Of a stretch of DNA of 64,000 nt, positions 572 through 23,073 are shown piece after piece (the first letter of the stretch is position 1; each line of letters starts with the position of its first letter). The notes beneath the pieces were generated by a model. It worked only from the letters and a program-made list of their open reading frames with translations. It ran no database searches and had not been told where the DNA came from. The stretch is from Treponema sp. (GTDB taxonomy: Bacteria > Spirochaetota > Spirochaetia > Treponematales > Breznakiellaceae). The position numbers and the translations under genes were made by a program. Location: contig JAIRRJ010000052.1 of assembly GCA_031256035.1 (NCBI GenBank), positions 1 through 64,000 of the forward strand, in the 5' to 3' direction.

Positions 572-1003
572 TTAAACGGGGATTACCCCTTTTTTCAAAA
601 TGATATTTCCGTATTTAACGGTTTCTCCGGTCATAACAACGGCAAATGCTTTTTTTGCCCGCTCGTAAAAAGCAAAACGTTCAATACGTTCGATTGGCGG
701 CGTGTCAGGCCAGCGTTTGTTGATTGCCGCACGGTACGATGTTTCGACTGCTGTGTCAAGGCTGTCGCCTGATACCGGCGCCATCATGACAACAGGATGG
801 GGAACATAGGCATCAAGGTTGATGAGCGCGAGAATGCCGTTAAGCAGCGCGGGGATTTTGATTCCGTCTGCCCGGATTACTTTTGGATTTACTGAATCTC
901 CGGGAAAAAAAGCATCGGCTAGAACGATTTCATCGCCATGCCCCATGCGAAACAGGGCATCAAGAAGTTCGGGACTTATGACCGGATCAATTCCAATTAG
1001 CAT
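572..1003 (-). CDS. fucU: L-fucose mutarotase
   Basis: FucU/RbsD-family protein of 143 residues, the normal length for the family. It interconverts alpha and beta anomers of L-fucose so that the isomerase receives the form it uses. The N-terminal [19 protein letters not shown] segment carries the catalytic His of the family, and the C-terminal [10 protein letters not shown] matches the conserved tail with its Tyr. It sits between the GH42-like protein gene and fucI on the same strand with short gaps, so co-transcription is very likely. The neighbouring fucI makes FucU a better call than RbsD (ribose pyranase). Confidence 0.93.
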
Positions 1004-1051
1004 TGTGCCGCCATTACTAATAGTCCCATTGAATTTTCAGTTTGTCAATAT

Positions 1052-2779
1052 TTATGTCAGCTTGAAAAAACGATATGTCCCGCCGGGAAGATAAATGCGC
1101 GCAGTTTTATATGAAACAACCGGCTTACCGTAATGTTTCCTGTTTGCGGAGTCGGCAGCAAGCGGAATCTCCGTGTCTGTCTCAAGGTCGCGCAGGGTAG
1201 AGTATTTTTCAGGCAGGAAGATTTCAACATCGTCCGCGTATTGTTTTTGCGAATATATGCCGATGACATCGTTATCATACATAAACATACAGATGCGTGG
1301 GCTGCTTTTTATGAATGGATTTGTGTCAGCAAAAACTCTGTTGATTAACCCCGTAACCTCTTTTGGCAGCGAATACAGATCGCCAAAATCATTCGGTATG
1401 TTGAGTGTATACAGATGCCCCTTTCCGTAGTAATCATGAACAAGCAGAGGGAAGCTGTTGTAGCCGGTCATCATGGCAATCTCACACCAGCTTGCGTTAG
1501 TTTTATAGTCGAGAGCCTCAATCATGATTTTTTCCCCGCCACTCGATACGAGCCTTCTTTCGCCGTAAGGTTCAACCCAATATTCGTTTCCGCTCACAAT
1601 GCGTCCCGTGGGGCGTACCGAAGTCATGTCCTTTATGCCGCGATCAATGCACTCTTTCAAAAAGCCTGCGGTGATAACGGCAGTATTGCCGCGCCGCACA
1701 TGATCTTCAAGTTTTTGAATAACGTCTTTGTCTTTTGCGGCGCTTGCCGGAAGGAAAACCATTTTGCCTTGACCGAAATCGGGAGACGGCTCAAAAGGAA
1801 TGCCCGTCATTCCGAGATAATTTACAACCTGATCTTCACCGTCCGCATTGTACGGCTCGTATAAACTGACGCCTCTGGGGTTGCCGCATTTCTTTATTAT
1901 CGAATTGAGTCTTGAAAGCCGGGGTGTAAGCGGCGGCAGGAATCCCGAATCGATCATCACAAAGAAATTGAAAAGCATCATCTCGCGCGCTTTTGCAAAT
2001 AACGTGAATTCCGCCTGCTCCACCCAGCCGCTTATGTCGTCCGATAAACCAAATGGGTCTATCCAGCCGCCGCCGTTTCTGCCCGGCGATACATTTTCAA
2101 GGTAGCGGATGATGCTGTAGCTCAGATACCTCTGCAAATGCTGCTGTTCGTATTTGGGGTTTCGGGTTTCAGTTCCTGTATAAATTCCGTCAAAAATATC
2201 TTTTTGTTTTTCCGGGTTGTAGCCGGTTTCCTGATACGATTCATACCAGTTCGGATATTTGATAATCAATTTTACTTTCGGATTGGCTTCCCTCGCCGCC
2301 TTTACCAATGTACGCGAAACATCTTCCATTAGACCGAGCTTGTAATCAGCCCATGTTTTTGCGCCTTTCGCTTTTATGCAATGTTCGCAGCGGCATGCGG
2401 TGAAATAAAAGTCGTCCAGAATTACTTCATCGAACAGTGCGGCTGTACGTTTCATGATTTCCGCAAGGCGTTCCCGGCACGGAGCTTCCGAATAGCAGAA
2501 AGTATCGAAAATGCTGTTTTTTTCGTGACCCTGCATTTGAATGGTCGTGGTGATTCCTCCCGCCGCTTCAATGCCATATTCCTCAAACAGCGCTTTTACA
2601 GCGCGTATTTTTTCAGCGCTCACCTCAACATTACTGCGGTAAGGCTCAATATAGACCTTGTCCAGCGGGCAATATTTTTCAAAGAATTCGATCCCGCGCC
2701 TTAATTCATCAAGCGATGCCTTTTCGATTCCGGAGGCGAACAGATATGCCGCCATTTTAAACTCAAATTGTTTTCCCAT
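1052..2779 (-). CDS. Unrecognised TIM-barrel protein with GATase-like middle domain, first gene of fuc operon
   Basis: About 575 residues with no signal peptide. The start is placed at MGKQFEF because GGAGG lies six bases before that ATG; an upstream ATG adds 12 residues but has no ribosome-binding site. Residues 1-330 look like a (beta/alpha)8 barrel (VILDDFYFTACRCEHC, KLIIKYPNWYES), with a CxxxxC pair. Residues about 340-440 (YLGMTGIPFEP, GKMVFLPAS, HVRRGNTAVITAG) resemble the glutamine-amidotransferase-like trimerisation domain of GH42 beta-galactosidases, followed by a small beta-rich tail. I infer a GH42-like cytoplasmic glycosidase or related enzyme acting on fucosylated compounds, from fold and from fucU/fucI downstream. 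I do not recognise a named family, and catalytic residues are not certain. Confidence 0.5.
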   Translation of the reverse strand: MGKQFEFKMAAYLFASGIEKASLDELRRGIEFFEKYCPLDKVYIEPYRSNVEVSAEKIRAVKALFEEYGIEAAGGITTTIQMQGHEKNSIFDTFCYSEAPCRERLAEIMKRTAALFDEVILDDFYFTACRCEHCIKAKGAKTWADYKLGLMEDVSRTLVKAAREANPKVKLIIKYPNWYESYQETGYNPEKQKDIFDGIYTGTETRNPKYEQQHLQRYLSYSIIRYLENVSPGRNGGGWIDPFGLSDDISGWVEQAEFTLFAKAREMMLFNFFVMIDSGFLPPLTPRLSRLNSIIKKCGNPRGVSLYEPYNADGEDQVVNYLGMTGIPFEPSPDFGQGKMVFLPASAAKDKDVIQKLEDHVRRGNTAVITAGFLKECIDRGIKDMTSVRPTGRIVSGNEYWVEPYGERRLVSSGGEKIMIEALDYKTNASWCEIAMMTGYNSFPLLVHDYYGKGHLYTLNIPNDFGDLYSLPKEVTGLINRVFADTNPFIKSSPRICMFMYDNDVIGIYSQKQYADDVEIFLPEKYSTLRDLETDTEIPLAADSANRKHYGKPVVSYKTARIYLPGGTYRFFKLT

Positions 2780-2881
2780 GATTTCCTCCTTGCTGATTCT
2801 CCCTGTCTCGTCCATTTTACCATATTTATTACAACATTTCAGCTATAGCCACAAGCGGCATAAATCCGCTATTCTATCATT

Positions 2882-4117
2882 ATGAAAGTTTGGGTTAAGT
2901 TATTAATAGGATCTATTTTGGGAATGACAATTGGTTTTTTGCTGCCTGTTGAAAGTCAACGTGTGTCCGAGGCTTTTCGATGGCTTGAAAGGCTGGCGCT
3001 GGGTATGGGACGGTATGCGGTAATTCCGGTTTTGGTATTTTCGCTTACTATGGCGGTTTATGAGCTTCGCCAGAGTGAACAGTTTTGGCCGATGGTATTT
3101 AAAAATTTCTTATTCATAATCGGAACTTCCCTCTTGGTAATATCATCCGGGCTTTTGGTAACCATGTTCTTTTCGCCGGGGCGTATTCCGATAGAAAAAG
3201 CCGAACAATTCGAAATACTAAATCTTGATATTGCGGCGAACATAGTTGATATATTTCCCGCAAATATGTTAAGCGTTCTTGCAGGCAGCGGTATTTATCT
3301 TTTTCCTGTATGCGTCTTTGCCTTTTTTATGGGAATGGGTCTCAACTACGACCGTAATCATTCCAAATCTGTGGTCACTCTGGTGGATTCTCTTTCCCGT
3401 ATTTTTTATCATATTGCATCTTTCTTTTCGGAAATCCTTGGATTTATTATTATTATGCTTTCTGCGTATTGGGCAGTCCGTTTTCACGGAATAATACAAG
3501 CCAGAATTTATAAAGATCTAGTCATAATGCTGGGAGTATTCAGCGTTGTGTTGTGTTTTATCATTTTCCCGTTGTTCCTGTATTTCCTGAAACCAAAGGT
3601 TAACCCTTGGCGCGTTCTTTACGGTTCGCTGGGACCGGCGCTGACATCATTCTTCTCCGGAGATATTAATTTTACTATACCGGTGCTGCAGCGCCACTTA
3701 AAGGAAAACTTCGGCGTCAGAAGGCGTTCCAGCGCTTTATCTCTGGCGCTCTTCAGCACTTTCTGTCGCTGCGGAAGCGCCATGATAGCGGCTGTGGCAT
3801 TTATCGTTATCATCAAATCATATTCATATTTAAGGATAGCTCCTGCCGTTCTGTTTTCAATCGGTCTGCGCGCCTTTTTCATATCCTTTTTGCTTGCGCG
3901 TCATCCCGGTGACGGAGCGTACATCGCGTTAGCTGCTCTTTGTTTAAGCTATGGCGGCGGTGAATACCGCGCGGGCTACCTGATCTTAAAACCTCTTGCT
4001 TTCTACCTTGTCGCTCTGGGTACTTTCATTGACGTAATGCTCACCGCTTTCGGTTCATACATTATGGCGCGCGCCAACGGATATATAGAGGGAAAGAATT
4101 TAGTGCATTTTATTTGA
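2882..4117 (+). CDS. Dicarboxylate/amino acid:cation symporter (SDF family)
   Basis: 411-residue polytopic inner-membrane protein of the sodium:dicarboxylate/glutamate symporter family (DctA/GltP type), which couples uptake of acidic substrates to Na+ or H+. The N-terminus (VWVKLLIGSILGMTIGFLLP) and the MGRYAVIPVLVFSL helix are typical. The C-terminal half has the serine-rich hairpin region (GPALTSFFSGDINFTIPVL, then CRCGSAMIAAVAF). The canonical Asn-Met-Asp-Gly substrate motif is not clearly present, so substrate is uncertain. No Shine-Dalgarno precedes the ATG; instead TATTCT ends six bases before it. The gene diverges from the fuc operon and its end overlaps the end of ygiQ by 8 bases. Confidence 0.8.
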   Translation: MKVWVKLLIGSILGMTIGFLLPVESQRVSEAFRWLERLALGMGRYAVIPVLVFSLTMAVYELRQSEQFWPMVFKNFLFIIGTSLLVISSGLLVTMFFSPGRIPIEKAEQFEILNLDIAANIVDIFPANMLSVLAGSGIYLFPVCVFAFFMGMGLNYDRNHSKSVVTLVDSLSRIFYHIASFFSEILGFIIIMLSAYWAVRFHGIIQARIYKDLVIMLGVFSVVLCFIIFPLFLYFLKPKVNPWRVLYGSLGPALTSFFSGDINFTIPVLQRHLKENFGVRRRSSALSLALFSTFCRCGSAMIAAVAFIVIIKSYSYLRIAPAVLFSIGLRAFFISFLLARHPGDGAYIALAALCLSYGGGEYRAGYLILKPLAFYLVALGTFIDVMLTAFGSYIMARANGYIEGKNLVHFI

Positions 4118-5984
4118 GAGAATCAATCAGGTCCTCCCTCTGGATTTCTTTCAAAGCTGTTATTATCAGCTTTCTGTTTTCCGGTTTGTTAAAATGGAGC
4201 AATGCCCGTTGCAGCCGCCGTTCTCTCTCTCCTTTGGCGATATACACCGGCTTCATGGTGCGGGGATCAAGTCCGGTGTGGTACATCACGGTTGACATTG
4301 TTCCCGGGGTTGGGTAAAAATCCTGCGATTGCTCCGGCACGAAGCCGGTTTTTTTGAGGTACTGCGCAAGTTCAACTGACTCTTCAAGCGATGCGCCGGG
4401 ATGGGCTGAAATAAAATAAGGCAGCAGGTATTGTTTTAATCCGAGCTGCCTGTTTGCGGCTTCGTAGTCCTTCCTGAATTGCTCATAACAGGAAGAGTTG
4501 CATTTTCCCATTGCGTCAAGCACCTTTGCTGAAACATGCTCCGGAGCGGTTTTTAGCTGGCCGCTTACATGATGTTTACAGAGCGTTTCCAGAAATTCCC
4601 TTCCGTGTTTTTTGTCATGCAGAATAAAATCAAAACGCAGCCCTGAGCGGATGAAGACTTTTTTTACACCGGGTATTTCTCTCAGTGCGCACAATGCCGC
4701 AAGATACTGACCATGATCCGCCTTTAACTCAGGGCAGGGTTCGGGATACAGACATTCACGCTGTGCGCAAAAACCTCCGCGCTTTTGCTTTTCACAGCCG
4801 GGGCGAAAAAAATTGGCTGTGGGGCCGCCCACATCGTGAACATAGCCCTTAAAGCCGGTAAGCGCGGCTATTCTTTTCCCTTCACGGAGCAGGCTTTCGC
4901 GGCTGCGTCCCGTAACGATCCGTCCCTGGTGGAAGGTAATCGCGCAAAATGAACAGCCGCCAAAACACCCCCGGCTTGATACAAGTGAAAAAGCGACTTC
5001 CTTGAGCGCGGGGATGCCACCGGCTTTGTCGTACATAGGGTGAGAACGCCGTGTAAAGGGAAGTTCGTAAAATGAATCAAGTTCTTCACCGGAAATGGGA
5101 AGGGCTGGAGGGTTTTGAATAACAAGGCGATCCCCGTCATTTCGTTCCGCAAGAGGTTTTGCGCTTTGTGGATCGGCATTTTGTTTCTGCAGCATGAAGT
5201 GTTCGGCATAGGCGCGTAACGAAGCTTCGTCTTTCCCCGATACTTTACTGTAATCAGGCAGAAAAACCGCATCCTTCCATTGTTCCGCGCCGCCATGAAC
5301 ACGGACACAAGTGCCGCGCACATCGCGGATGCTGTCCGCCGATTCACCAGAGGCTAGACGGCGCACAATTTCCAGTATGGGTTTTTCACCCATTCCGTAA
5401 ACAAGAATATCCGCTTTTGAATCAAGCAGGATGGAACGCCTAACAGTATCCGACCAGTAATCGTAGTGGGCAAAGCGGCGGAGGCTTGCCTCAATCCCGC
5501 CAATGATCACAGTCGTGTTTTTGTATGCGCGCCTGATCCCCTCAACATATACCAAAAGAGCGCGGTCAGGGCGCATTTTGCAACGAAGTTTCCCGCGCAG
5601 CCCGCTTTTTCCGCCGGGCGAATATGCGTCATCGGAACGTTTTCGTTTTGCGGCTGTGTAATGTGCAACCATGGAATCCATGTTGCCTGCGCCCGCTAAA
5701 AACCCGAGCCGTGGCCGGCCTAAAATTGTATACGATGAAGTGTCTTTCCAGTCCGGCTGAGGGATTATGCCTACGCGGAAACCGGCGGCTTCAAGTGTCC
5801 GGCACAAAAGCGCCGCGGCAAAAGACGGATGATCGACATAGGCGTCGCCGGAAACGAAAATAAAATCGCACGCTTCCCACCCGCGCTCGTCCATATCGCG
5901 GCGGCACACGGGAAGAAAATCGCCGGATTTATATGCCGACGACGGCTTTGACCTGTGGTATTTCCTTTTTGAGGTAATTTTCAA
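4110..5984 (-). CDS. ygiQ: YgiQ-family radical SAM protein
   Basis: About 624 residues, close to the family length. N-terminal cobalamin-binding-like segment (FIFVSGDAYVDHPSFAAALL, HYDYWSDTVRR), then the radical SAM cluster motif CFGGCSFC (CxxxCxxC), then DVGGPTANFF and APEHVS, all diagnostic for YgiQ. The exact biochemical role of YgiQ is not established. The open frame begins at a TTG inside nfu; family homology clearly begins by GDFLPVCRRDMDERGW, so the exact start is uncertain. Residues about 129-137 (RGKLRCKM) are an extra block relative to E. coli YgiQ, where GKRPDRA is continuous; it is encoded by a copy of the dispersed 24-bp repeat at 5573-5598. Likely co-transcribed with nfu. Confidence 0.92.
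   Translation of the reverse strand: MKITSKRKYHRSKPSSAYKSGDFLPVCRRDMDERGWEACDFIFVSGDAYVDHPSFAAALLCRTLEAAGFRVGIIPQPDWKDTSSYTILGRPRLGFLAGAGNMDSMVAHYTAAKRKRSDDAYSPGGKSGLRGKLRCKMRPDRALLVYVEGIRRAYKNTTVIIGGIEASLRRFAHYDYWSDTVRRSILLDSKADILVYGMGEKPILEIVRRLASGESADSIRDVRGTCVRVHGGAEQWKDAVFLPDYSKVSGKDEASLRAYAEHFMLQKQNADPQSAKPLAERNDGDRLVIQNPPALPISGEELDSFYELPFTRRSHPMYDKAGGIPALKEVAFSLVSSRGCFGGCSFCAITFHQGRIVTGRSRESLLREGKRIAALTGFKGYVHDVGGPTANFFRPGCEKQKRGGFCAQRECLYPEPCPELKADHGQYLAALCALREIPGVKKVFIRSGLRFDFILHDKKHGREFLETLCKHHVSGQLKTAPEHVSAKVLDAMGKCNSSCYEQFRKDYEAANRQLGLKQYLLPYFISAHPGASLEESVELAQYLKKTGFVPEQSQDFYPTPGTMSTVMYHTGLDPRTMKPVYIAKGERERRLQRALLHFNKPENRKLIITALKEIQREDLIDSLK
5573..5598 (-). repeat. Dispersed in-gene repeat, copy 1 (inside ygiQ)
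   Basis: On the coding strand this reads GGGAAACTTCGTTGCA with conserved flanks GCGC and AAATGC. It is read in frame as RGKLRCKM, at a point where E. coli YgiQ has no residues between GK and RPDRA. The insertion keeps the frame and causes no stop. Confidence 0.8.
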
Positions 5985-7110: not shown

Positions 7111-7809
7111 TTACTGCCCGTAATAGGCATCTTTACCGTGCTTGCGTTCCCAGTGTTTTTTTGTTATGTGCTCAGGTAACGGAGAAGCAAGAGGATCAAG
7201 CATTACGGTAAAAAGAGCCATTTTGCAAATTTCTTCCAAAATGACGCTGTGGCGAACTGACTCGGCTGCGCTTTCGCCCCAGGTAAAGGGACCGTGTCCG
7301 GCTACCAGCGCTATATTGATGCGGGAGGCATCCAGATTCCCTGATCTGAAAGTTTCCACAATCAGATTTCCCGTTTCAGGTTCATAATCATTTTTTACTG
7401 CTTCAGGGCTTAAGAAGGGAGTACATGGAATTTCCATCGCGCAATGATCGGCATGAGTTGTGCCAAAAACAGGAACCGGTTTTTTTGCCTGTGCCCAGGC
7501 GACCGCATACGGCGAATGGGTGTGAGTGATGCCGCGGATGGTCTTGAAATTGCGGTATAAAACCTGATGTGTTTTTGTATCCGATGAAGGCTTGAGTTTC
7601 CCATCGACAATTTTCCCGTCAAGGTCAACCAATGTCATCAATTCCGGCTGCAATTGATCATATTCCAGACCGGAAGGTTTAATGGCGAATATAGCCCTGT
7701 CAGGATCAAGGGCAGATACGTTGCCCCATGTGTAAATGGCAAGATTGCGGCGTTTTATTTCGATGTTCGCTTCATAGGCCTCTTCACGTAACGTTCTGTA
7801 TGCGTCCAT
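7111..7809 (-). CDS. araD: L-ribulose-5-phosphate 4-epimerase
   Basis: 232 residues, the usual length. A class II aldolase-fold, metal-dependent enzyme that converts L-ribulose-5-phosphate to D-xylulose-5-phosphate, feeding the pentose phosphate pathway. Visible family motifs are TWGNVSA near the start, KPSGLEYDQL, the SSDTKTH phosphate/metal segment, THTHSPYAVAWAQA with the metal-binding His pair, and THADHC. It follows araA by five bases on the same strand and completes the arabinose operon araB-araA-araD. Confidence 0.97.
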   Translation of the reverse strand: MDAYRTLREEAYEANIEIKRRNLAIYTWGNVSALDPDRAIFAIKPSGLEYDQLQPELMTLVDLDGKIVDGKLKPSSDTKTHQVLYRNFKTIRGITHTHSPYAVAWAQAKKPVPVFGTTHADHCAMEIPCTPFLSPEAVKNDYEPETGNLIVETFRSGNLDASRINIALVAGHGPFTWGESAAESVRHSVILEEICKMALFTVMLDPLASPLPEHITKKHWERKHGKDAYYGQ

Positions 7810-7814
7810 GTATT

Positions 7815-9308
7815 TTAACGCCCCCAGTATGCTTCGTTCCAGTGCAGTTCATCCTGCAGTCTGTTTACGCTGGTGTTCTTGTCAATCAGGACAAACTCAA
7901 TTCCGCTCATCCGGGCATAATCGCGGAAATATTCCTGCGTAAGGGCGGTGCTGTATACTGAATGATGAGTGCCGCCTGATATTATCCATGCTTCGGCGGC
8001 GGCGCTTAAATTCGGATACGGCTTCCACAGGGCGCGGGCAACGGGCAGCTTAGGCATGGGATTTTCAATTTTTACGGTCTCGACCTCATTGACAATCATT
8101 CTGAAACGGGAGCCAAGGTCGATCAGTGTAGCCAATACCGCAGGCCCCGGCGCGGCGTCAAATACCAGACGGGCGGGATCAGCCTTGCCGCCTATTGAAA
8201 GCGGATGAACTTCAACGCGGGGTTTCCCGTCCGCAATCGAAGGGCATATTTCCAGCATGTGAGAGCCAAGGACGGCTTCTTTGCCCGGCTCAAGATGATA
8301 GGTGTAATCTTCCATGAACGAAGTCCCGCCCAAAATACCGGCAGCCATTACTTTTGCGGCGCGTGTCAGCATGGATTGTTTCCAGTCCCCCTCCGCGCCA
8401 AAACCGTAGCCCTTCTCCATGAGCCGCTGACAGGCAAGACCGGGCAGCTGCGGCAGGCCGTGAAGGTCCTGAAAAGTAGTGGTAAAAGCTCCGGCATTTT
8501 CAGATAACAGCATTTCTTCTATGGCGGTTTCAATCTTCGCCTGTTCCAGCATGGCTGTTCTTGCTGCGCCGGGCTGTTTCAGAGCAGGCGCAAGTTCGTA
8601 CATGGCGGCATATTCTTCCGCGAGTTTTTCCGCGTGCCCGTTGTCGATCTTCGCATAACGGGAGGAAAGATCGCCGATACCCCAGGTGTTCACCTGCCAG
8701 CCGAATTTAATCTGCGCTTCGATCTTGTCTCCTTCTGTAACGGCGACTTCCCGCATATTGTCTCCGAACCGGAGAACCGGCGAATCCTGACCGTCTTTCC
8801 TTGCCGCGGCAGCACGCATCCACACGCCAATCCTGCGGCGCAATTCGCTGTCCTGCCAGAAACCGGCTGCAACTTTTCCGGGAAGCTTCATCCGGGCATG
8901 AATGTAACCGTGTTCGCGGTCGCCGTGCGCCGACTGATTCAGATTCATAAAGTCCATATCTATCGCCGCCCAGGGTATGTCGCGGTTAAACTGGGTATGA
9001 AGGTGCAGCAGAGGCTTGCGGTTCATTGCCAGCCCCTGTATCCACATCTTTGAAGGTGAAAAAGTATGCATCCATGTCATGATTCCGGCGCAGTGTGCGG
9101 CGGCATTCGCTTCTTCAAAAAGACCGCGGATTTTTTCGGGCGTTATTGCCACCGGTTTTAACGCCACTGTGCCGGGAAGCAAAGGATCATTGTTGAATTC
9201 ATCCGCCATTATCCGCGCATGATCGGCGACCAGCTTGATGGTCTCGTCCCCGTAAAGGTCCTGGCTTCCGACAATAAACCAGTATTCGAATTTTTTAAGG
9301 TTCATCAT
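7815..9308 (-). CDS. araA: L-arabinose isomerase
   Basis: 497 residues, typical for AraA. It converts L-arabinose to L-ribulose and needs Mn2+. N-terminal [14 protein letters not shown] is the family signature, followed by [27 protein letters not shown] and [18 protein letters not shown], all strongly conserved in AraA. The ATGATG start overlaps the TGA stop of araB (translational coupling), and a GAGAGGAAA ribosome-binding site lies in the araB end. Confidence 0.97.
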
Positions 9309-15524: not shown

Positions 15525-15968
15525 CTACGCCGCGTTAATCTGTATTATTCGCGTCTGCGCCGCGGCGCGTTTTTTTATCTCCATGCACAGGACGCCGTTT
15601 TTGAAAGATGCGCTCACCGCTTCTGGATCGGCGTTTTCCGGCATCTTGAAGGCGCGGCGGAAAGAACTTACCCTCCGTTCGTGCAGAAGGTAGTTGACTT
15701 CATCTTCGGTCTTTTTTTCCTCTTGTTTGGAAGTGATGGAAAAGCCTGAACCGTCAACATGGATTTCGATGTTTTTTTCATCGTAGCCGGGCAGCTCCAT
15801 CTCAAGAACATAGGCGTTCTCAGTCTCCCGGATATCCACCGCGGGCATAGATTTAAATATCTTTGCCGCAGGAGCAAAAGATGTGTCCCCAAAGAAGGGG
15901 GCGAAGCAGCGGTCAAAATCGCTCATGACGTTTTGGATTGCGCTGGGATGGATGGTTAATGTTCTCAT
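15525..15968 (-). CDS. Small heat shock protein, Hsp20/alpha-crystallin family
   Basis: 147 residues from MRTLTIHP, chosen because AAGGAGATATGGT directly precedes that ATG; the frame is open upstream to 16181 but without family similarity. The alpha-crystallin domain is clear: PAVDIRETENAYVLEMELPGYDEKNIEIHVDG, RRVSSFRRAFKMPENADPEAVSASFKNGVL and the C-terminal IxI-like RIIQIN. It is an ATP-independent holdase that binds unfolding proteins in the cytoplasm. It is a single gene converging with rbsK. Confidence 0.93.
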   Translation of the reverse strand: MRTLTIHPSAIQNVMSDFDRCFAPFFGDTSFAPAAKIFKSMPAVDIRETENAYVLEMELPGYDEKNIEIHVDGSGFSITSKQEEKKTEDEVNYLLHERRVSSFRRAFKMPENADPEAVSASFKNGVLCMEIKKRAAAQTRIIQINAA

Positions 15969-16218
15969 ACCATATCTCCTTAATAATCCGGCGGGATTTT
16001 GGCGGAAATGGCAAATGCCTTGGTTCAACGAACCTTCCCCCATGAAGGCGGGTTTTCCACTCTTCCTCGTCGATGGAGATATACTAGCAGGAACTGTGCC
16101 AAGCTGCATTTTCAATACTATTGCGGCAAAAAAAGGAGATAATGACACGGTCAGAGCAATATCATAATTAAACTGTGTCAAAATGACGCAAATGTTGCAA
16201 GCCCGACTGTGGTTTTTC

Positions 16219-16266
16219 GCAGCCTAGCCCGCAGGGCGTACAATTACCGTCCTGTTAGGCTACGCG
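16219..16266 (-). repeat. GC-rich inverted repeat at the 3' border of the AT-rich cassette
   Basis: AGCCTA (16221-16226) pairs with TAGGCT (16256-16261), with inner CAGG/CCTG. It lies just after the last cassette gene, where base composition jumps from AT-rich to GC-rich. There is no U-tract after the minus-strand hairpin, so it may mark the border of an inserted block rather than a terminator. Confidence 0.35.
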
Positions 16267-16287
16267 TTGGCTTTACAGATCTATTTC

Positions 16288-16872
16288 CTATTCTGAAAAT
16301 AATTCATATTGTGTAAATAATCTATCACCAGTATCAGGCCCTTTACCATCTTTTACAACAGACATCTTTGAACCTTTAAAACTTTTTTCAGAGATACGAA
16401 TGGTGTATAAAAATTTGTTTTCAAATTTATATACCGCTTTTTCAGATAGAACATTTGATGCAAAAAATATTTTTTTACTATTTTTCATAGTTTTTGATAA
16501 TTTTAATATAATATCACCTGTATTAATTACAGCATCTATCAATACTATGTCATTTTCAAGAATTTGTATCCAGTTACCTTTTTCTTTATTCCATTGTTTT
16601 TCGTCAGAATAAAATAAAACAGATATTTTTTTACCTAATTCTTCTAACTCGTCTGCGATCCCCATACCGAAACAAAGACCTGCTCGCATTAATACAACTA
16701 AAGTAATATTATCATTTAACAAATCATTAATCATTCTCTTTGCCAATATCTTTCCTAACCCATAATGGGCTTTACGCAATTGCAGACCATTAATATGGGA
16801 GTCACTTCTACATACAGTAATAAGAGATTCAAGTTCACTGTTTTTTTCAACATCAAGAGAAATTATACTCAT
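16288..16872 (-). CDS. Uracil-phosphoribosyltransferase-like protein of the four-gene cassette
   Basis: 194 residues. A type I phosphoribosyltransferase fold is indicated by VVLMRAGLCFGMGIADEL (compare the ILRAG loop of UPRT), the PRPP-binding segment IVLIDAVINTGDIILK (about 109-124), and a C-terminal GKGPDTGDRLF resembling the GDAGDR tail that contacts uracil in Upp. UPRTs join uracil to PRPP to give UMP. Sequence between motifs is divergent, so the base or acceptor may not be uracil. The start overlaps the upstream kinase-phosphatase gene by four bases (ATGA). It is the last gene of the cassette and shares its AT-rich composition. A housekeeping role seems less likely than a cassette-specific one. 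Confidence 0.75.
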   Translation of the reverse strand: MSIISLDVEKNSELESLITVCRSDSHINGLQLRKAHYGLGKILAKRMINDLLNDNITLVVLMRAGLCFGMGIADELEELGKKISVLFYSDEKQWNKEKGNWIQILENDIVLIDAVINTGDIILKLSKTMKNSKKIFFASNVLSEKAVYKFENKFLYTIRISEKSFKGSKMSVVKDGKGPDTGDRLFTQYELFSE

Positions 16873-18131
16873 AGAAACAGGCTCCTCTTCATAGGTACAT
16901 CTTCATAATAAAGCTCGCTGTATTCAAGTTGCATCATTTCTGTCTTGGTATTCAAAAGATAATTTTTTATCGTTTCATTAATCTTTTCTTGGGCAACGAT
17001 AAAACTCTTATCGGCTTCATTTAGCATATCCATATCAACCATCGAATCGCCGACAGCAATTACATATTTTCCACTTTCACGCAGAAATTTAATCAAATAA
17101 AACTTTACCGCTCTTGAAACGATAAAATCATCAGTTTCTAAATTACTACCGCCTACAATAATATTAGGAAATTTATATTCTTCCTGTATTTTTTCCCATG
17201 TTCTCAAAATGCCAGAGGTTATCCCTATGGACAGATAAGCATCGCCGTTATGTTTTACATCCTCAATAAGCGGTTTATTCAAAATGGCTGTTTTTGATGC
17301 ATGATCACTTGCATATTCATATAATTGTAAATCTTTTTCCGCATATAATTTTGCCACTCGGAAAAACTGATATGCCGAATAATATTCGCCACTGAATATT
17401 TTTTTAAGTTTATTTTTATCTATATTCATTGAAGCACAAAAATCATAAGTTGTGTCGTTATTAGAAATTGTCCGATCACAATCAAGAATGACTATTTTTT
17501 TATATTTACTAATGAGTTCTTTGTGTTTACAGATTATATGTTTTGCAATATCTTTTGAGTCAAGTAATATATCATGTGTTTCCAATAGTATTTCTTCAAA
17601 AAAATCCGTGCAATCATCTATGTCATTATCTAATACAACAAATTCTTTGTTATTAGCAAGACATATTTTACGTAATGATTGCATCTCAAATTCTTTCCAT
17701 TTGTCTATTTTATCTTCAGACATAAATGCAACATCTTTTTTATTAGCGTCTAAATTTGCATATTTTATAATAACATTTGCTGGTGTATCAAGATAAAAGA
17801 AAATGTCATACGCATCTCTGTCTTTATCAGTAAAAGCTATTTCAAATGATTCGTTTTTACAAAAACAAAAATGGCCATCAACAATTTTATGCTTATAACC
17901 ATTCTTCAATGCAACAAGTTCATCATGAAACATTTGACGAAGGTGGTTTTTTTGATTTTCATTGGTTTCGTTAAGAGGGATACCATATTCATTATGTGAT
18001 AACTTATTCAGACTTTCATATCCATTCACATGAAATATAGTTTTTGCTACTTTACCGTTAATATTATCAAGAAGATGATCTATAAGATAATTTTTCCCAC
18101 AACGTGATATGCCGTACAATGCAATATTCAT
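16869..18131 (-). CDS. P-loop kinase-like / HAD phosphatase fusion of the cassette
   Basis: 420 residues in two parts. Residues 1-190 have a nucleotide-kinase-like P-loop (GISRCGKN, 7-14; the usual Ser/Thr after Lys is Asn, so ATP hydrolysis needs checking) and a later IFFYLDTPANV strand as in small-molecule kinases. Residues about 211-400 are a HAD phosphatase of the phosphoserine-phosphatase type: DCDRT (Asp217, Asp219), GITSG (305-ish) and AVGDSMVDMDML (Asp362, Asp366). A kinase fused to a HAD phosphatase recalls polynucleotide kinase-phosphatase in layout, but the order of motifs does not prove a nucleic-acid substrate. It overlaps the radical SAM gene by four bases upstream and the PRTase gene by four bases downstream. 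Confidence 0.75.
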   Translation of the reverse strand: MNIALYGISRCGKNYLIDHLLDNINGKVAKTIFHVNGYESLNKLSHNEYGIPLNETNENQKNHLRQMFHDELVALKNGYKHKIVDGHFCFCKNESFEIAFTDKDRDAYDIFFYLDTPANVIIKYANLDANKKDVAFMSEDKIDKWKEFEMQSLRKICLANNKEFVVLDNDIDDCTDFFEEILLETHDILLDSKDIAKHIICKHKELISKYKKIVILDCDRTISNNDTTYDFCASMNIDKNKLKKIFSGEYYSAYQFFRVAKLYAEKDLQLYEYASDHASKTAILNKPLIEDVKHNGDAYLSIGITSGILRTWEKIQEEYKFPNIIVGGSNLETDDFIVSRAVKFYLIKFLRESGKYVIAVGDSMVDMDMLNEADKSFIVAQEKINETIKNYLLNTKTEMMQLEYSELYYEDVPMKRSLFL

Positions 18132-19036
18132 AAATCATTCCTATTCAAAATATGTTTGTTATAATAACATTCGCCATCTTTTACTGGACTGAATTTTTTC
18201 AATACATTAGCAATTTTAAAAAAACTTGTATTAAAATCAGCAATTTTATAGGCATCATTCTTATAGAATCTGCTACAAGGATATATTCCTTGTCTTGTAA
18301 TAAATATATTAGTACGCCCAACACCGCACAACTGTCCATATGTAAGGCAATCGTAGCTTTTTTTTGGTCTACCTTGACGAAAAACAATGGCTTTTGTATC
18401 ACAGACATATTGTAGAAAGTCTTGATATTCTCGATGATTAATCATCAAATCCTTATCTTCTGCATCAATGAGTTGGGAAAAGTTAATATTTCTAAAATTA
18501 TGTTTTATATAATATCTAGCAACAGTTTCTTTGTTGTTAATAGTTTTTCGGCTCACTGTACAGTTAAGAACAGGTCTTTCATGGAAAATAGACTCATATA
18601 ACTTTATTCCGTTTAATGTTTTATCATATTTTTCCTTGCCGTAATTATGTAATTCCTTATGACCGTCCAATGAAAAATTCAGTTTAATTAGTTGTTTGTA
18701 TTTATGGAAAAATAAAAGCATTTCTTCATTGACAAGCGTACCGTTGGTTACAGTGTAAAACGCCAATATATTATCCGCATCTTCACGTTTCGTATATTCT
18801 ATTATATGTTTTATTTTTTCAAAATTCAAAAGTGGCTCGCCAGCGCCAACTATCCCCATTTTGAACATAGACAAACCATTCTGTCTTGAATACCCAAGAA
18901 TATTATGTAAGATAATGGAAATATCGTCTTCACTTAACATTTCATCACTGTTTATGAGGTTCCTCTGCCTAAAATAACAATAACAGCAGTTCAAATTACA
19001 TTGATTATTGACTGACAAACAAGCTCTATCTATCAT
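18128..19036 (-). CDS. Radical SAM enzyme with SPASM-like C-terminus, in the cassette
   Basis: 302 residues. The radical SAM cluster motif is CNLNCCYC (Cys13, Cys17, Cys20), followed by the SAM-binding GAGEPLL (64-70). The C-terminal part holds further cysteines (230, 237, 254, 290) in a pattern CxxxxxxCGVG...GIYPCSRF, like the SPASM/twitch domains that bind an auxiliary Fe-S cluster in peptide- and protein-modifying members. No small precursor peptide gene is evident nearby. The gene overlaps the XRE-PIN-ankyrin gene by one base and the kinase-phosphatase gene by four. The substrate is unknown; a modified peptide, tRNA or nucleotide are all conceivable. Confidence 0.85.
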   Translation of the reverse strand: MIDRACLSVNNQCNLNCCYCYFRQRNLINSDEMLSEDDISIILHNILGYSRQNGLSMFKMGIVGAGEPLLNFEKIKHIIEYTKREDADNILAFYTVTNGTLVNEEMLLFFHKYKQLIKLNFSLDGHKELHNYGKEKYDKTLNGIKLYESIFHERPVLNCTVSRKTINNKETVARYYIKHNFRNINFSQLIDAEDKDLMINHREYQDFLQYVCDTKAIVFRQGRPKKSYDCLTYGQLCGVGRTNIFITRQGIYPCSRFYKNDAYKIADFNTSFFKIANVLKKFSPVKDGECYYNKHILNRNDL

Positions 19037-20301
19037 TACATTCTATCCTTAAAAAGATTATATAGATCAAGGCTGTTTTTTTTGTTTGGTTTAATGTATT
19101 CAACAGCTTTTTTATTTTCCCATGAACGAATGTGTACATCTGCCTTTTTTATTATTAAGTCGGCTACATCCAAATGACCTTTAATACAAGCCTTTATCAA
19201 TGCTGTAAAACCATTTTTGTTATCCTGTTGATTTAGACACGCTCCTTGTTCAATAAGAAATTTAACCCCACCAATGAAACCGTGCCATGCACAGACCATA
19301 AGTGCTGTGTTTCCTTTATTATCTCCTTTACTCCCAACATCAATATCAGCTCCTTCCTCGACTAGTAATTTCATCATATCCAATCTTTCCATTTGGGCTG
19401 TATGAAGAAGCGGAGTAAATTTATATTTATAATGATCATGACAATCCAGATCAATACGTCCCTTGTATGTTTCCATTAAATAATTGATTATGTCTATATT
19501 TTTATACCTTACTGCCTGAATCAACGGCGTATATCCTATTTCTGGATCAACATAATTTATGTTGATTTCCGGATCGTATTCCATAGCTTGCATCTGTTCC
19601 CATTTTTTTTCTTTTAGCAGAGACATGAATTTTTGTGTTTTTTCTGTATCGTACTCATTCTCATTATCATGGAAATGTGTTTTGTAAGTATCGTAACCCA
19701 ATAAAACAAGATTGCTACGTTTTTCATTTACCAAAAACGAATACCATATATCAACGGCAAATACATATATTTTATCTGAAAAGTTTCTTCCAGCACGTTC
19801 AATAGCAATATTCGCAATTTGAACATCATGCTTATCATTTATGTTTTTCGATAATGTAGATTGTATAATGAGTTTCTTGTTTTCTCTTTTTATCTCGCCT
19901 ATATAATGCATAATCAAAGCAGCCTGTCGTTTAAGCCATGGTTTTGCGTTATCTTTTTGATTATTTAACTCATCAATAACAATTTGTGGGACAATAATCT
20001 CGTCAAATTTTTTCATGATCTCTCTGATAATGTCAGGACGTTTGATAAGCATAGAAGTATCAATTACTGCAACACGCTTTCCAGAGGCTTCATTATTTAC
20101 CAGAATATCAATTGACACATTTAATATTTGAGCAAGTCTTGCAAGTTGACTTGTTGATGGCTCGCCTATACTGCGCTCCCAATTGGAAATAACTGGACGG
20201 GCGATATTCAATTTTGACGCTATATCATCTTGAGACATATTCAATTCCTTCCTCAAGCGTCTGATATTGGAACTGACATTATTCATTACATTTGATACCA
20301 C
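19036..20301 (-). CDS. XRE HTH - PIN - ankyrin repeat protein, first gene of the cassette
   Basis: About 421 residues in three parts. Residues 8-68 are a Cro/C1 (XRE) helix-turn-helix (IRRLRKELNMSQDDIASKL, VISNWERSIGEPS). Residues 76-205 look like a PIN ribonuclease domain with acidic residues in family positions (VIDTSM Asp81, IDEL Glu111, NDKHD, FAVD Asp184). Residues about 255-410 hold four to five ankyrin repeats (GYTPLIQAV, FTPLLHTAQ, GNTALMVCAW, GFTALIKAC). The start is taken as GTG at 20301 because AGGAAAG lies about five bases before it; ATG at 20286 is an alternative. It probably autoregulates through sites upstream, with the ankyrin part as a sensor or docking surface. Function is inferred only. 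Confidence 0.82.
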   Translation of the reverse strand: MVSNVMNNVSSNIRRLRKELNMSQDDIASKLNIARPVISNWERSIGEPSTSQLARLAQILNVSIDILVNNEASGKRVAVIDTSMLIKRPDIIREIMKKFDEIIVPQIVIDELNNQKDNAKPWLKRQAALIMHYIGEIKRENKKLIIQSTLSKNINDKHDVQIANIAIERAGRNFSDKIYVFAVDIWYSFLVNEKRSNLVLLGYDTYKTHFHDNENEYDTEKTQKFMSLLKEKKWEQMQAMEYDPEININYVDPEIGYTPLIQAVRYKNIDIINYLMETYKGRIDLDCHDHYKYKFTPLLHTAQMERLDMMKLLVEEGADIDVGSKGDNKGNTALMVCAWHGFIGGVKFLIEQGACLNQQDNKNGFTALIKACIKGHLDVADLIIKKADVHIRSWENKKAVEYIKPNKKNSLDLYNLFKDRM

Positions 20302-20321
20302 TTAATCTTTCCTTACTTTGA

Positions 20322-20402
20322 ATATGTAATAAGGATATACCTTTTTCATCATATATGTCAATTGATTTTCATAATTTGTAACAATATTTTACATATGTAA
20401 TA
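20322..20402 (-). promoter_or_regulatory. Promoter and candidate operators of the four-gene cassette
   Basis: The minus strand has TTGACA (20361-20356), 16 bases, TATATC (20339-20334). The 10-mer ATATGTAATA occurs at 20322-20331, beside the expected transcript start, and again at 20393-20402, where it forms part of the palindrome TTACATATGTAA (20389-20400). These are plausible binding sites for the XRE domain encoded by the first gene. Confidence 0.5.
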
Positions 20403-20598
20403 CATTCTTACATAAAAAACAAATATTTATGTTTTAGGGTTATTATTTCAAGAATCATTTTTTGTATTTTCTTGGTATTTTGCCAACGTGTTGCCTCTCT
20501 TGCCTTTATATCAATAATTGCCGGTTCATAAAACCTGTTGAAAAAGACCGGACTTAACGATATTCTCCATATTATCAGGAAAATCACGGAGGAATACC

Positions 20599-23073
20599 AT
20601 GCAATACGGTTATTTTGATGATGAAGCGCGAGAGTATGTCATTACCCGCCCGGATACCCCCTATCCCTGGATTAACTATCTGGGTTGTGAGGATTTTTAC
20701 GGCCTGTTTTCCAATACATCAGGCGGCTATTGTTTCTATCGGGACGCGCGTATGCTGCGCCTGACCCGCTACCGCTACAACAATGTGCCCACTGATACCG
20801 GAGGCCGATATTTCTACCTGAAAGACGGCGGCGATGTATGGTCGCCATCCTGGATGCCGATGAAATCCGATCTTGCAAAATACGAATGCCGCCACGGGAT
20901 GGGCTATTCGCGTATTTCCTCCGCGCGAAACGGTTTGGCTTATATTCAAGTCTCGTTTGTGCCGCTCAAGGATAATTGCGAAATACACAAAATCACGCTA
21001 ACTAACGAATCCAAAGCCGGCAAGGATGTCGATATTTTTTCATACATCGAATTTTGCCTGTGGAACGCAAATGACGATATGACGAACTTCCAGCGGAATT
21101 ACAGCATCGGCGAAGTCGAGATTGAAGGTTCGCGCATCTACCACAAAACCGAATACCGCGAACGGCGCAATCATTACGCAGTGTGGGCGGTCAATGTTCC
21201 GGTTGAGGGATTCGACACCGACAGGCAGACTTTTCTCGGTCTTTACAATGGCTATGATCACCCTCAGACGGTGTTCACCGGAAAAGCGAATAATTCAGTC
21301 GCCTCAGGCTGGGCGCCTGTTGGCTCTCATCATATCAAGGTTAAACTTGCCGCAGGTGAATCAAAATCATTTGTCTTTGTGCTGGGCTACTGCGAAAATC
21401 CCGAAGATCAAAAATTTGAGAAGCCGGGCATTGTCAACAAAAAGCCAGCCAACGCGCTCCTTGCTAAATACAATACGCCTGAAGCGGCGGACAAAGCGCT
21501 TGCCGCGCTGAACGATTACTGGACGGCATTGCTCAGCCGCTTCACCGTTGACGCCGAAGACAAACGCATGGCGCGCATGGCGGGTGTGTGGAATCAGTAC
21601 CAGTGCATGGTAACGTTCAATATGTCGCGCAGCGCGTCATACTTTGAATCGGGTATCGGGCGCGGCATGGGCTTCCGCGATTCGAATCAGGACCTGCTTG
21701 GCTTTGTACACCTTGTGCCGGAACGCGCCCGTTCGCGTATTCTTGACATTGCGGCAACGCAGCTTCCCAACGGCGGCGCGTATCATCAGTATCAGCCGCT
21801 CACAAAGCGCGGCAACAATGAAGCCGGTTCCGGTTTCAACGATGATCCTCTGTGGCTGATCTGCGGAGTATCAGCGTACATCAAGGAAACGGGCGACTTC
21901 GGTATCCTCGATGAAAAAGTCCCCTTTGAAAACAAGGAAGAACTCGCCGATACGCTCTTCAATCACCTGAAGCGTTCTTTTGACTACACCCTGACAAACG
22001 TCGGCCCGCACGGGCTGCCGCTCATTGGCCGCGCCGACTGGAACGACTGCCTGAACCTCAATTGTTTTTCCAAAACGCCCGGCGAATCTTTCCAGACCAC
22101 AGCCAACTTTGAAAGCGGCATCGCCGAATCAGTTTTAATCGCGGCGATCTTCGCCTTTGTCGGCCCGGATTATGTTGAGATTTGCCGCCGCACAAATCGC
22201 GCGGAAGAAGCTGGTCGCGCCGAAAAAGCAATCGCCACCATGATCGAAATCATCAATAAACACGGCTGGGACGGCAGCTGGTTCCTGCGCGCCTATGACG
22301 CTCACGGCAAAAAAATCGGCAGCCGTGAATGTACAGACGGGCAGATTTTTATCGAGTCCAACGGATTTGCGGTGATGGCGGGCATCGGGCTGGAAGACGG
22401 GCGCGCGGAAAAAGCGCTCAACTCGGTAAAGGAAAAACTCGACACCCCGTACGGCATTGTGCTGCTGCAGCCCGCGTACAAGGAATACCACATTGAGTTA
22501 GGTGAAGTTTCGTCCTATCCTCCTGGTTACAAGGAAAACGCCGGTATTTTTTGCCACAACAACCCCTGGGTTACCATTGCGGAAACAATGCTGGGACGAG
22601 GCACACGCGCCTTTGAAACCTATACAAAGATTTGCCCCGCCTACCGCGAAGACGACAGCGATCTGCGGCGCATGGAACCGTATGTTTACGCGCAAATGGT
22701 TGCGGGAAAAGACGCGGTGCGGCACGGTGAGGCGAAGAATTCCTGGCTGACGGGAACCGCCGCGTGGACATTCGTCAGTATCTCACAATATATTTTAGGA
22801 GTGCGCCCGGTCTTCGATGGTTTACTCATAGACCCCTGCATTCCGGCAAGCATGAAAAAGTTTTCCATTACCCGCTATTTCCAAAACGCGTATTACCGCA
22901 TCACCGTGGATAACAGTGCAGGCGTGGAAAAGGGCGTCAAATCCGTTACCCTGGATGGCAAACCATTATCCGGCGCGGTACCTGACGCCGAGCCCGGAGG
23001 GCGAAGGTTCCCGCCCGTGTTGCCCGCGTTAAAAGACGGAAAAACCCATGAAGTCATCGTAGTAATGGCATGA
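20599..23073 (+). CDS. Cellobiose phosphorylase (GH94)
   Basis: 824 residues, the size of GH94 cellobiose phosphorylases. It splits cellobiose with phosphate to glucose-1-phosphate and glucose in the cytoplasm, saving one ATP. Near-identical blocks to the Cellvibrio gilvus enzyme run through the protein: [89 protein letters not shown] (with the catalytic Asp), [15 protein letters not shown] and [17 protein letters not shown] precedes the ATG. It has no signal peptide, so an uptake system for cellobiose must exist elsewhere. GC-rich, in sharp contrast with the adjacent cassette. Symbols such as cbp or cepA are in use. Confidence 0.96.

Follow-up and report, generated by a model that had tools for sequence, protein, structure and literature searches.

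What does a compact set of four AT-rich genes, lodged between a heat-shock gene and a cellobiose phosphorylase gene, do for the spirochete that carries it? The window is the whole 64,000-nucleotide stretch of Treponema sp. DNA that was analyzed (assembly GCA_031256035.1, contig JAIRRJ010000052.1, positions 1 to 64,000 of the forward strand). The sequence-only reading of this window had described four overlapping genes on one strand at 16288-20301, and they are present exactly as claimed. They are called P (helix-turn-helix (HTH), PIN, and ankyrin parts), R (a radical S-adenosylmethionine (SAM) enzyme), K (a kinase-HAD fusion), and U (a phosphoribosyltransferase resembling uracil phosphoribosyltransferase (UPRT)). 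The cassette is a real, conserved system. With a probability of roughly 45%, we read it as a mobile, self-regulated conflict module, most likely anti-phage, in which an ankyrin-gated PIN RNase would be controlled via a nucleotide-like compound on which R, K, and U act. The domain make-up, catalytic conservation, linkage, transfer, and operator rest on sequence; the product, the direction of control, the RNA target, and protection against phage are what we infer.

Conservation of the cassette as a set

The first search, made with K, recovered the four genes in unchanged order in two relatives, and then in one relative at the order level and one at the phylum level. The main scan compared a U alignment with 84,980 species genomes and yielded 80 loci; the final locus set (L numbers below) consists of the main-scan loci minus duplicates plus the earlier loci. 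All four families are present in 67 of the 73 loci with enough contig, and 11 further loci that end too near a contig edge to judge are excluded from the 73. The six incomplete loci with room are remnants (L163, L175, and L192), a set without R (L006), and two loci without P and R (L197 and L200, the upstream side of L200 being cut off by the contig end). A radical SAM gene beside the G123 set in L006 (9187-9996, minus strand) was considered as R and rejected, being only 22% identical and convergent. It belongs to another family, so L006 is counted as incomplete. This gene has a weak viperin-like match (30.7 bits), and in the neighboring G123 variant R is missing and K and U form one fused gene.

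The order P-R-K-U is the commonest (56 loci), and L156 has K-U ahead of P-R. Fusions of K and U account for 23 gene calls, which suggests that the two act on one pathway. The host titles cover nine phyla including the archaeal Thermoplasmatota (L147), although some are metagenome bins in which foreign contigs are possible. A search with K found it in 5 of 299 Lachnospiraceae-group genomes and in 4 of 296 Vibrio-order genomes (one copy each, about 1-2%), and all of these matches lie within cassettes. The four new loci from this search hold the whole set, apart from L262, whose contig ends before U. Exactly one K per genome was found in the 14 genomes tested whole. No stand-alone member of the R family was detected at E<=1e-40 in 398 Bacillota genomes. 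The sequence-only reading had named independent occurrence of the four families as its refutation; the proportion of complete loci and the absence of stand-alone copies from the K and R searches contradict such independence. The distance matrices of R, K, and U agree with one another (Spearman 0.77-0.88), whereas P agrees less with the enzymes (0.43-0.49), which suggests a stable enzyme core with P as its more changeable partner. Frameshifts occur in the PIN part of P in the G169 set (L040:5113-5478) and in K of Vibrio mimicus CAIM 602 (L127:8714-9963), where decay or sequencing error is possible.

Table 1. Features of the cassette and its borders in the window.
Feature	Position	Strand	Description or basis
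Gene P	20301-19036	minus	421 aa, HTH-PIN-ankyrin
P HTH	about 20265-20101	minus	Pfam HTH_3, 55.5 bits, above cut-off
P PIN nuclease	about 20076-19732	minus	PIN_4, 41.9 bits, above Pfam cut-off
P ankyrin repeats	about 19569-19066	minus	Pfam Ank, 110 bits, above cut-off
Gene R	19036-18128	minus	302 aa, radical SAM enzyme
Gene K	18131-16869	minus	420 aa, kinase-HAD fusion
K N-terminal nucleoside-monophosphate-kinase-fold domain	about 18131-17580	minus	AlphaFold2 (AF2) model and fold match
K C-terminal HAD-IB phosphatase domain	about 17507-16872	minus	AF2 model and fold match
Gene U	16872-16288	minus	194 aa, UPRT-like phosphoribosyltransferase
Putative operator TGTAA-N7-TTACA, copy 1	20377-20393		upstream of P; motif recurrence across cassettes
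Putative operator TGTAA-N7-TTACA, copy 2	20396-20412		upstream of P; tandem with copy 1
Insertion, approximate extent	16193-20587		between hsp20 and cellobiose phosphorylase gene; comparison with L236, L237, and L239
hsp20 (small heat-shock gene)	15525-16181	minus	left flank
Cellobiose phosphorylase gene	20599-23073	plus	right flank

Predicted activities of the four proteins

The domain calls of the sequence-only reading hold: HTH, PIN, ankyrin, Radical_SAM, and UPRTase score above the Pfam cut-offs, and the kinase and HAD parts are recognized by fold. The structure prediction that it had proposed gave adenylate-kinase and HAD-IB folds for K and a radical SAM, anSME-like fold for R. The conservation of catalytic residues was computed over 67-83 homologues for P (PIN), R, K, and U and was 97-100%.

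P carries all four catalytic acids of a PIN RNase (D81, E111, D159, and D184), and these are 97-100% conserved in 67 homologues. The share of near-invariant columns is highest in the ankyrin part (11.7%, compared to 6.4% in PIN and 3.3% in HTH), and N, Q, D, K, and G make up most of the invariant ankyrin residues. This strong conservation is in line with an unchanging ligand or partner, and less with a phage target that evolves quickly. By its sequence, P combines an intact PIN RNase with ankyrin repeats and, in most cases, an HTH. An ankyrin match to PADLOC PDC-M72A spans the repeats only and was not used.

R scores 50.0 bits against Radical_SAM (Pfam cut-off 29.5). Its core CxxxCxxC cysteines (C13, C17, and C20) are 99-100% conserved in 69 homologues, and the C-terminal auxiliary cysteines C230, C237, and C254 are conserved in 100% and C290 in 90%. 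The core and the auxiliary cluster cysteines place R among the SPASM/twitch-type enzymes. The SPASM-like cysteines claimed earlier are thus a conserved auxiliary set, but a shortened one of the twitch type, below the full SPASM count, which suggests one auxiliary cluster rather than two. The closest folds to the AF2 model of R (predicted local distance difference test (pLDDT) 94.8) are anSMEcpe (Z 27.7) and CteB (Z 26.1), followed by viperin (Z 19.9) and MoaA (Z 17.3). The sequence profiles agree with this ranking, and the PapB model gives 96.5 bits.

The kinship of R with protein and peptide maturases is the strongest hint against the favored mechanism, and it keeps alive the alternative that the cassette is a toxin with a modifying antitoxin block. 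R and K/U would then covalently modify P or its RNA target and, in the manner of a complex toxin-antitoxin system, keep P inactive; loss of the enzymes would free the PIN RNase. The four genes are nearly always together, the operon looks autoregulated, and the cassettes share no recurring gene for a separate substrate peptide, which makes P itself a candidate substrate. However, P has no invariant Cys, Ser, or Thr target outside its domain folds, and U and the kinase fold of K point to free nucleotides. We consider covalent control of P unlikely.

The viperin matches of R suggest a different product. U, K, and R could form a viperin-like antiviral nucleotide factory whose product itself blocks phage RNA or DNA synthesis, with P mainly a regulator or safety device. 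R matches the PADLOC pVip model weakly (1.1e-14) and scores 48.4 bits against the curated viperin model NF038283, well below its cut-off of 180, so it does not pass that model. Moreover, it is closer to SPASM maturases and has the conserved auxiliary cysteine cluster, and the P nuclease site is intact in nearly all loci, which a pure regulator would not need. An antiviral end product is slightly less likely than covalent control of P.

K is predicted to have two catalytic halves. In its AF2 model (pLDDT 95.5), residues 1-185 match OdinAK, an archaeal adenylate kinase (Z 19.3, root-mean-square deviation (rmsd) 1.9, 175 residues aligned), and residues 209-420 match the phosphoserine phosphatase SerB (Z 16.0, rmsd 3.1). 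The P-loop residues G7, G12, and K13 are conserved in 100%, and the residues of the HAD motifs DxDxT, K, and GDSxxD (D217, D219, T221, K343, G361, D362, and D366) in 99-100%. Both halves lie below the Pfam cut-offs, and they fall short of the curated kinase family (AAA_17, 19.8 bits, cut-off 27) and HAD-IB (TIGR01488, 21.5 bits, cut-off 45) models. Fold and motifs nevertheless clearly mark K as a fusion of a domain with the nucleoside monophosphate (NMP) kinase fold and a HAD-IB phosphatase domain. The order kinase-HAD had raised the idea of a T4-type polynucleotide kinase/phosphatase, which was set aside as the less likely reading since the structure matches are adenylate kinase and SerB.

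A PIN RNase next to predicted kinase and phosphatase activities would also suit an RNA-stress module, in which the nucleotides or ends left after P has cut RNA would be salvaged or repaired by the enzyme block. PHP phosphoesterases lie beside the set in L135 and L193, and the L193 protein is nearest to the 3',5'-nucleoside bisphosphate phosphatase and RNase RNM models, although far below the cut-off. In the structure matches obtained, the kinase half takes the NMP-kinase fold and not that of a T4-type polynucleotide kinase, and it is hard to see what a radical SAM enzyme would do in repair. RNA repair is the least probable of the explanations considered, and very improbable.

U scores 39.2 bits against Pfam UPRTase (PF14681, cut-off 27) and belongs to this superfamily, whereas at 17.9 bits it does not pass the upp equivalog model TIGR01091 (cut-off 208). 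Its profile aligns with solved E. coli-type UPRT structures, and a DAVINTG motif resembling the phosphoribosyl pyrophosphate (PRPP) loop, MRAGL, and the C-terminal GPDTGDRLF are conserved in 83 homologues. Judged by their conserved residues, the three enzymes R, K, and U look catalytically intact, and they evolve together and travel with P.

Transfer, genomic surroundings, and regulation

The consecutive genes P/R, R/K, and K/U overlap by 1, 4, and 4 bases, and the GC contents of P, R, K, and U are 33, 31, 30, and 28%. The AT-richness noted earlier is pronounced: the 4,014 bp cassette has 30.9% GC compared to 49% in the flanks, and every other stretch of equal length in the window has at least 40.5%. 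Across the loci, 48 of 61 cassettes have a lower GC content than their flanks. In three genomes of the same genus (L236, L237, and L239), hsp20 and the cellobiose phosphorylase gene are adjacent with no cassette between them, and the aligned coding parts of the two genes are about 70-200 bp apart. Homology with these relatives begins at about 20588 on the right and stops between about 16112 and 16192 on the left. A palindrome resembling TGTGTCAAAATGACRCA lies at window positions 16166-16192 upstream of hsp20, and in the same intergenic region in L236 and L239; it is possibly an hsp20 operator. The window cassette has only weak, probably chance repeats in place of the terminal repeats of a mobile element. 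In a quick R+K+U tree, the Treponema cassettes fall into two separate starred groups, one of them with Fibrobacter, and Helicobacter is nested within Bacillota.

Scans of viral sequences with the U and R alignments matched phage contigs, and scans with the kinase/HAD alignments gave no match. In L041 the cassette lies on the opposite strand between the terminase large subunit and portal genes. The cassettes of L042 and L203 come after tail, holin, and lysin genes and ahead of serine recombinases, and serine recombinases are also near the cassettes of L202 and L204. L202 has a neighbor that is FtsW/RodA-like by eye and may therefore include host DNA. The empty site, the tree, and the phage contigs bear out the proposal that the four genes moved together, and by sequence the cassette enters chromosomes and prophages as one unit.

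Several loci have defense genes nearby. A type I specificity subunit and a DRT1 (UG5) reverse transcriptase-nitrilase (803-4147, 1019.6 bits) are just upstream of a divergent cassette in L263; DrmB and DrmC (DISARM genes) and a restriction-type ATPase are neighbors in L135; and DarT is nearby in L148. The resemblance to conflict or stress systems that the sequence-only reading had seen is strengthened by these neighbors and by prophage carriage, while a defense function is still something we infer.

Accessory genes enlarge some cassettes. Two divergent cassettes in different hosts (L139, 4004-6297; L148, 5531-7833) have an identical set of three genes inserted between P and R, which encode a phosphoribosyltransferase resembling adenine phosphoribosyltransferase (APRT), an isochorismatase-fold hydrolase (below cut-off in L148), and a permease with a weak MOT1-type match. 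A NERD-domain protein accompanies 16 Bacillota-type loci, adjoining the cassette or inside it (e.g., L042:10651-11733 and L150:2727-3866). Small companion genes at the NERD loci form clusters c5, c9, and c11, of which c11 is HNH endonuclease-like by eye.

The permease and hydrolase of the extended versions would suit an ordinary small-molecule operon for a nucleoside antibiotic, cofactor, or signal, unrelated to phage and with P as its regulator. Three of the four genes encode enzymes, and many loci lie among metabolic genes. However, the distribution is sparse, horizontally moved, and prophage-borne, the PIN RNase active site is conserved, and the core set has no export or resistance gene. 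We regard such an operon as improbable.

The region upstream of P points to autoregulation. The motif TGTA-N9-TACA occurs upstream of P in 10 of the 17 cassettes whose HTH has an SNWE-type recognition helix (mean 0.11, maximum 2 in shuffles), and in only 1 of 52 other HTH cassettes. The occurrences among SNWE cassettes range from spirochetes to gammaproteobacteria and include a phage contig and an archaeon. The motif is best interpreted as a site for autorepression by the P HTH.

Duplicated P genes divide the parts of the protein. In L135, L173, and L203, the copy with the HTH has broken PIN acids (DKAD or HEKD), whereas the HTH-less copy keeps DEDD, and unusual invariant ankyrin residues, among them N363 and K370, are retained in both. 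This split suggests that the HTH and the nuclease are separable outputs of one ankyrin-bearing receiver. The division of labor is not universal, since both copies in L170 and L194 keep the HTH and the acidic sites. In L184, the gap between a dead-PIN P and R (7785-8129) encodes the start of a PIN domain (RRIVVDTNVILKF), a remnant of a second, active P copy.

Proposed mechanism and comparison with known systems

In the proposed conflict module, a modified nucleotide-like compound would be made, activated, or removed by the joint action of R, of U, which would use PRPP and a uracil-like base, and of both halves of K, the NMP kinase and the HAD domain. This chemistry is suggested because U is UPRT-like, K combines an adenylate-kinase fold with HAD-IB, and L139 and L148 add an APRT-like gene. 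The ankyrin domain of P would read the compound, directly or via contact with the enzymes; it is the candidate common receiver because both split P copies keep its invariant residues and because its near-invariant share is the highest in P. In the resting state, the HTH would repress the operon. Infection or nucleotide stress may shift the ligand level, which would lift repression and let PIN cut RNA, and the cutting would stop the phage or the infected cell. The ligand could be either trigger or antidote.

A broader version of this mechanism, which we offer tentatively and with clearly less confidence, is a new form of nucleotide-signal immunity. A modified nucleotide built by R, K, and U and read by ankyrin repeats would gate interchangeable RNases and the operon repressor. 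The RNase would be PIN in most loci and a different protein in L200, a Bacteroidetes bin in which separate kinase and HAD genes and U surround an LRR-Roc-COR protein (1386-4118) ending in Schlafen/AlbA_2. This Roco-Schlafen protein is a possible alternative effector for the same enzyme block. No other Roco variant turned up when 395 genomes from the phylum of L200 were scanned with U.

Several observations weigh against the conflict module. R is nearest to the peptide and protein maturases anSME, CteB, and PapB in both sequence and fold, not to nucleotide-modifying radical SAM enzymes. The effector swap in L200 is a single locus, truncated by the contig end. A tblastn search with three kinase proteins against 72,556 plasmids and 50,697 named phages found none at the sensitivity used. 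The defense-gene neighbors are a description and not an enrichment over control loci. Finally, many loci lie among ordinary metabolic genes, and the neighbor Pfam tally is mostly mixed metabolism.

If the enzyme block makes a signal, that signal would be a nucleotide messenger produced with a radical SAM enzyme and read by ankyrin repeats; to our knowledge, such chemistry would be new to immunity. At about 4 kb the set is compact; it occurs in the cultivable hosts Vibrio, Ruminococcus albus, and Lachnoanaerobaculum orale, and includes natural controls in the dead-PIN copies, the fused K-U, and the cassettes without an HTH. These properties make the system directly testable.

No single named PADLOC 2.0 system was matched; the models gave generic HTH, ankyrin, and weak viperin matches only, and K and U had none. 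A report of the four-gene set was not found in the literature searched, with slight coverage of subscription papers and none of preprints. The earlier statement that no described system has this set therefore agrees with both sources.

Several known systems resemble parts of the cassette. Bacterial viperins make the 3'-deoxy-3',4'-didehydro (ddh) nucleotides ddhCTP, ddhGTP, and ddhUTP (PMC10732462). The prokaryotic viperin pVip is a mobile antiviral radical SAM gene, sometimes with a nucleotide kinase; the cassette is likewise mobile and contains a radical SAM gene, and nucleotide chemistry is proposed for it too. The two differ in that the cassette R fails the viperin cut-off and has auxiliary cysteines, and in that the PIN-ankyrin, UPRT-like, and HAD parts are extra. 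VapC and PIN-PhoH2 share the intact PIN RNase site and the PIN_4 family with P, whereas the cassette PIN is fused to an HTH and ankyrin repeats and scores 13.5 bits against the PhoH2 model (cut-off 680). The cassette is also not a VapBC system, since its PIN is not stand-alone and no small partner antitoxin gene recurs. Fusions of uridine kinase with UPRT are known, and the K-U fusions likewise join a kinase to a UPRT-like domain, but the cassette kinase has the archaeal adenylate-kinase fold and an added HAD-IB domain.

The Ter-dependent stress systems of Anantharaman et al. (2012) reportedly contain a phosphoribosyltransferase and enzymes of the HAD type, for which a nucleoside-like metabolite has been proposed as product. 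The cassette shares these kinds of enzymes, and a similar product and a stress or conflict setting are proposed for it. The four proteins do not match TerC/TerD, ATP-grasp, or TRSP, U is UPRT-like, and StiP gives 11.9 bits (cut-off 28.7), so no Ter family is represented among them. CBASS, Thoeris, and the ancillary nucleases of type III CRISPR share the proposed logic, in which a small nucleotide-like molecule made by enzymes acts on a sensor domain that turns on a nuclease. In place of a cyclase, the cassette has enzymes of the base-salvage and radical SAM types, and none of its four proteins matches CD-NTase, TIR, or Cas10 among the Pfam and PADLOC models. Because it matches no named system, falls below the viperin and Upp cut-offs, and has no counterpart in the literature searched, we rate the set as categorically new in composition, with a proposed logic that resembles known signal-gated defense systems.

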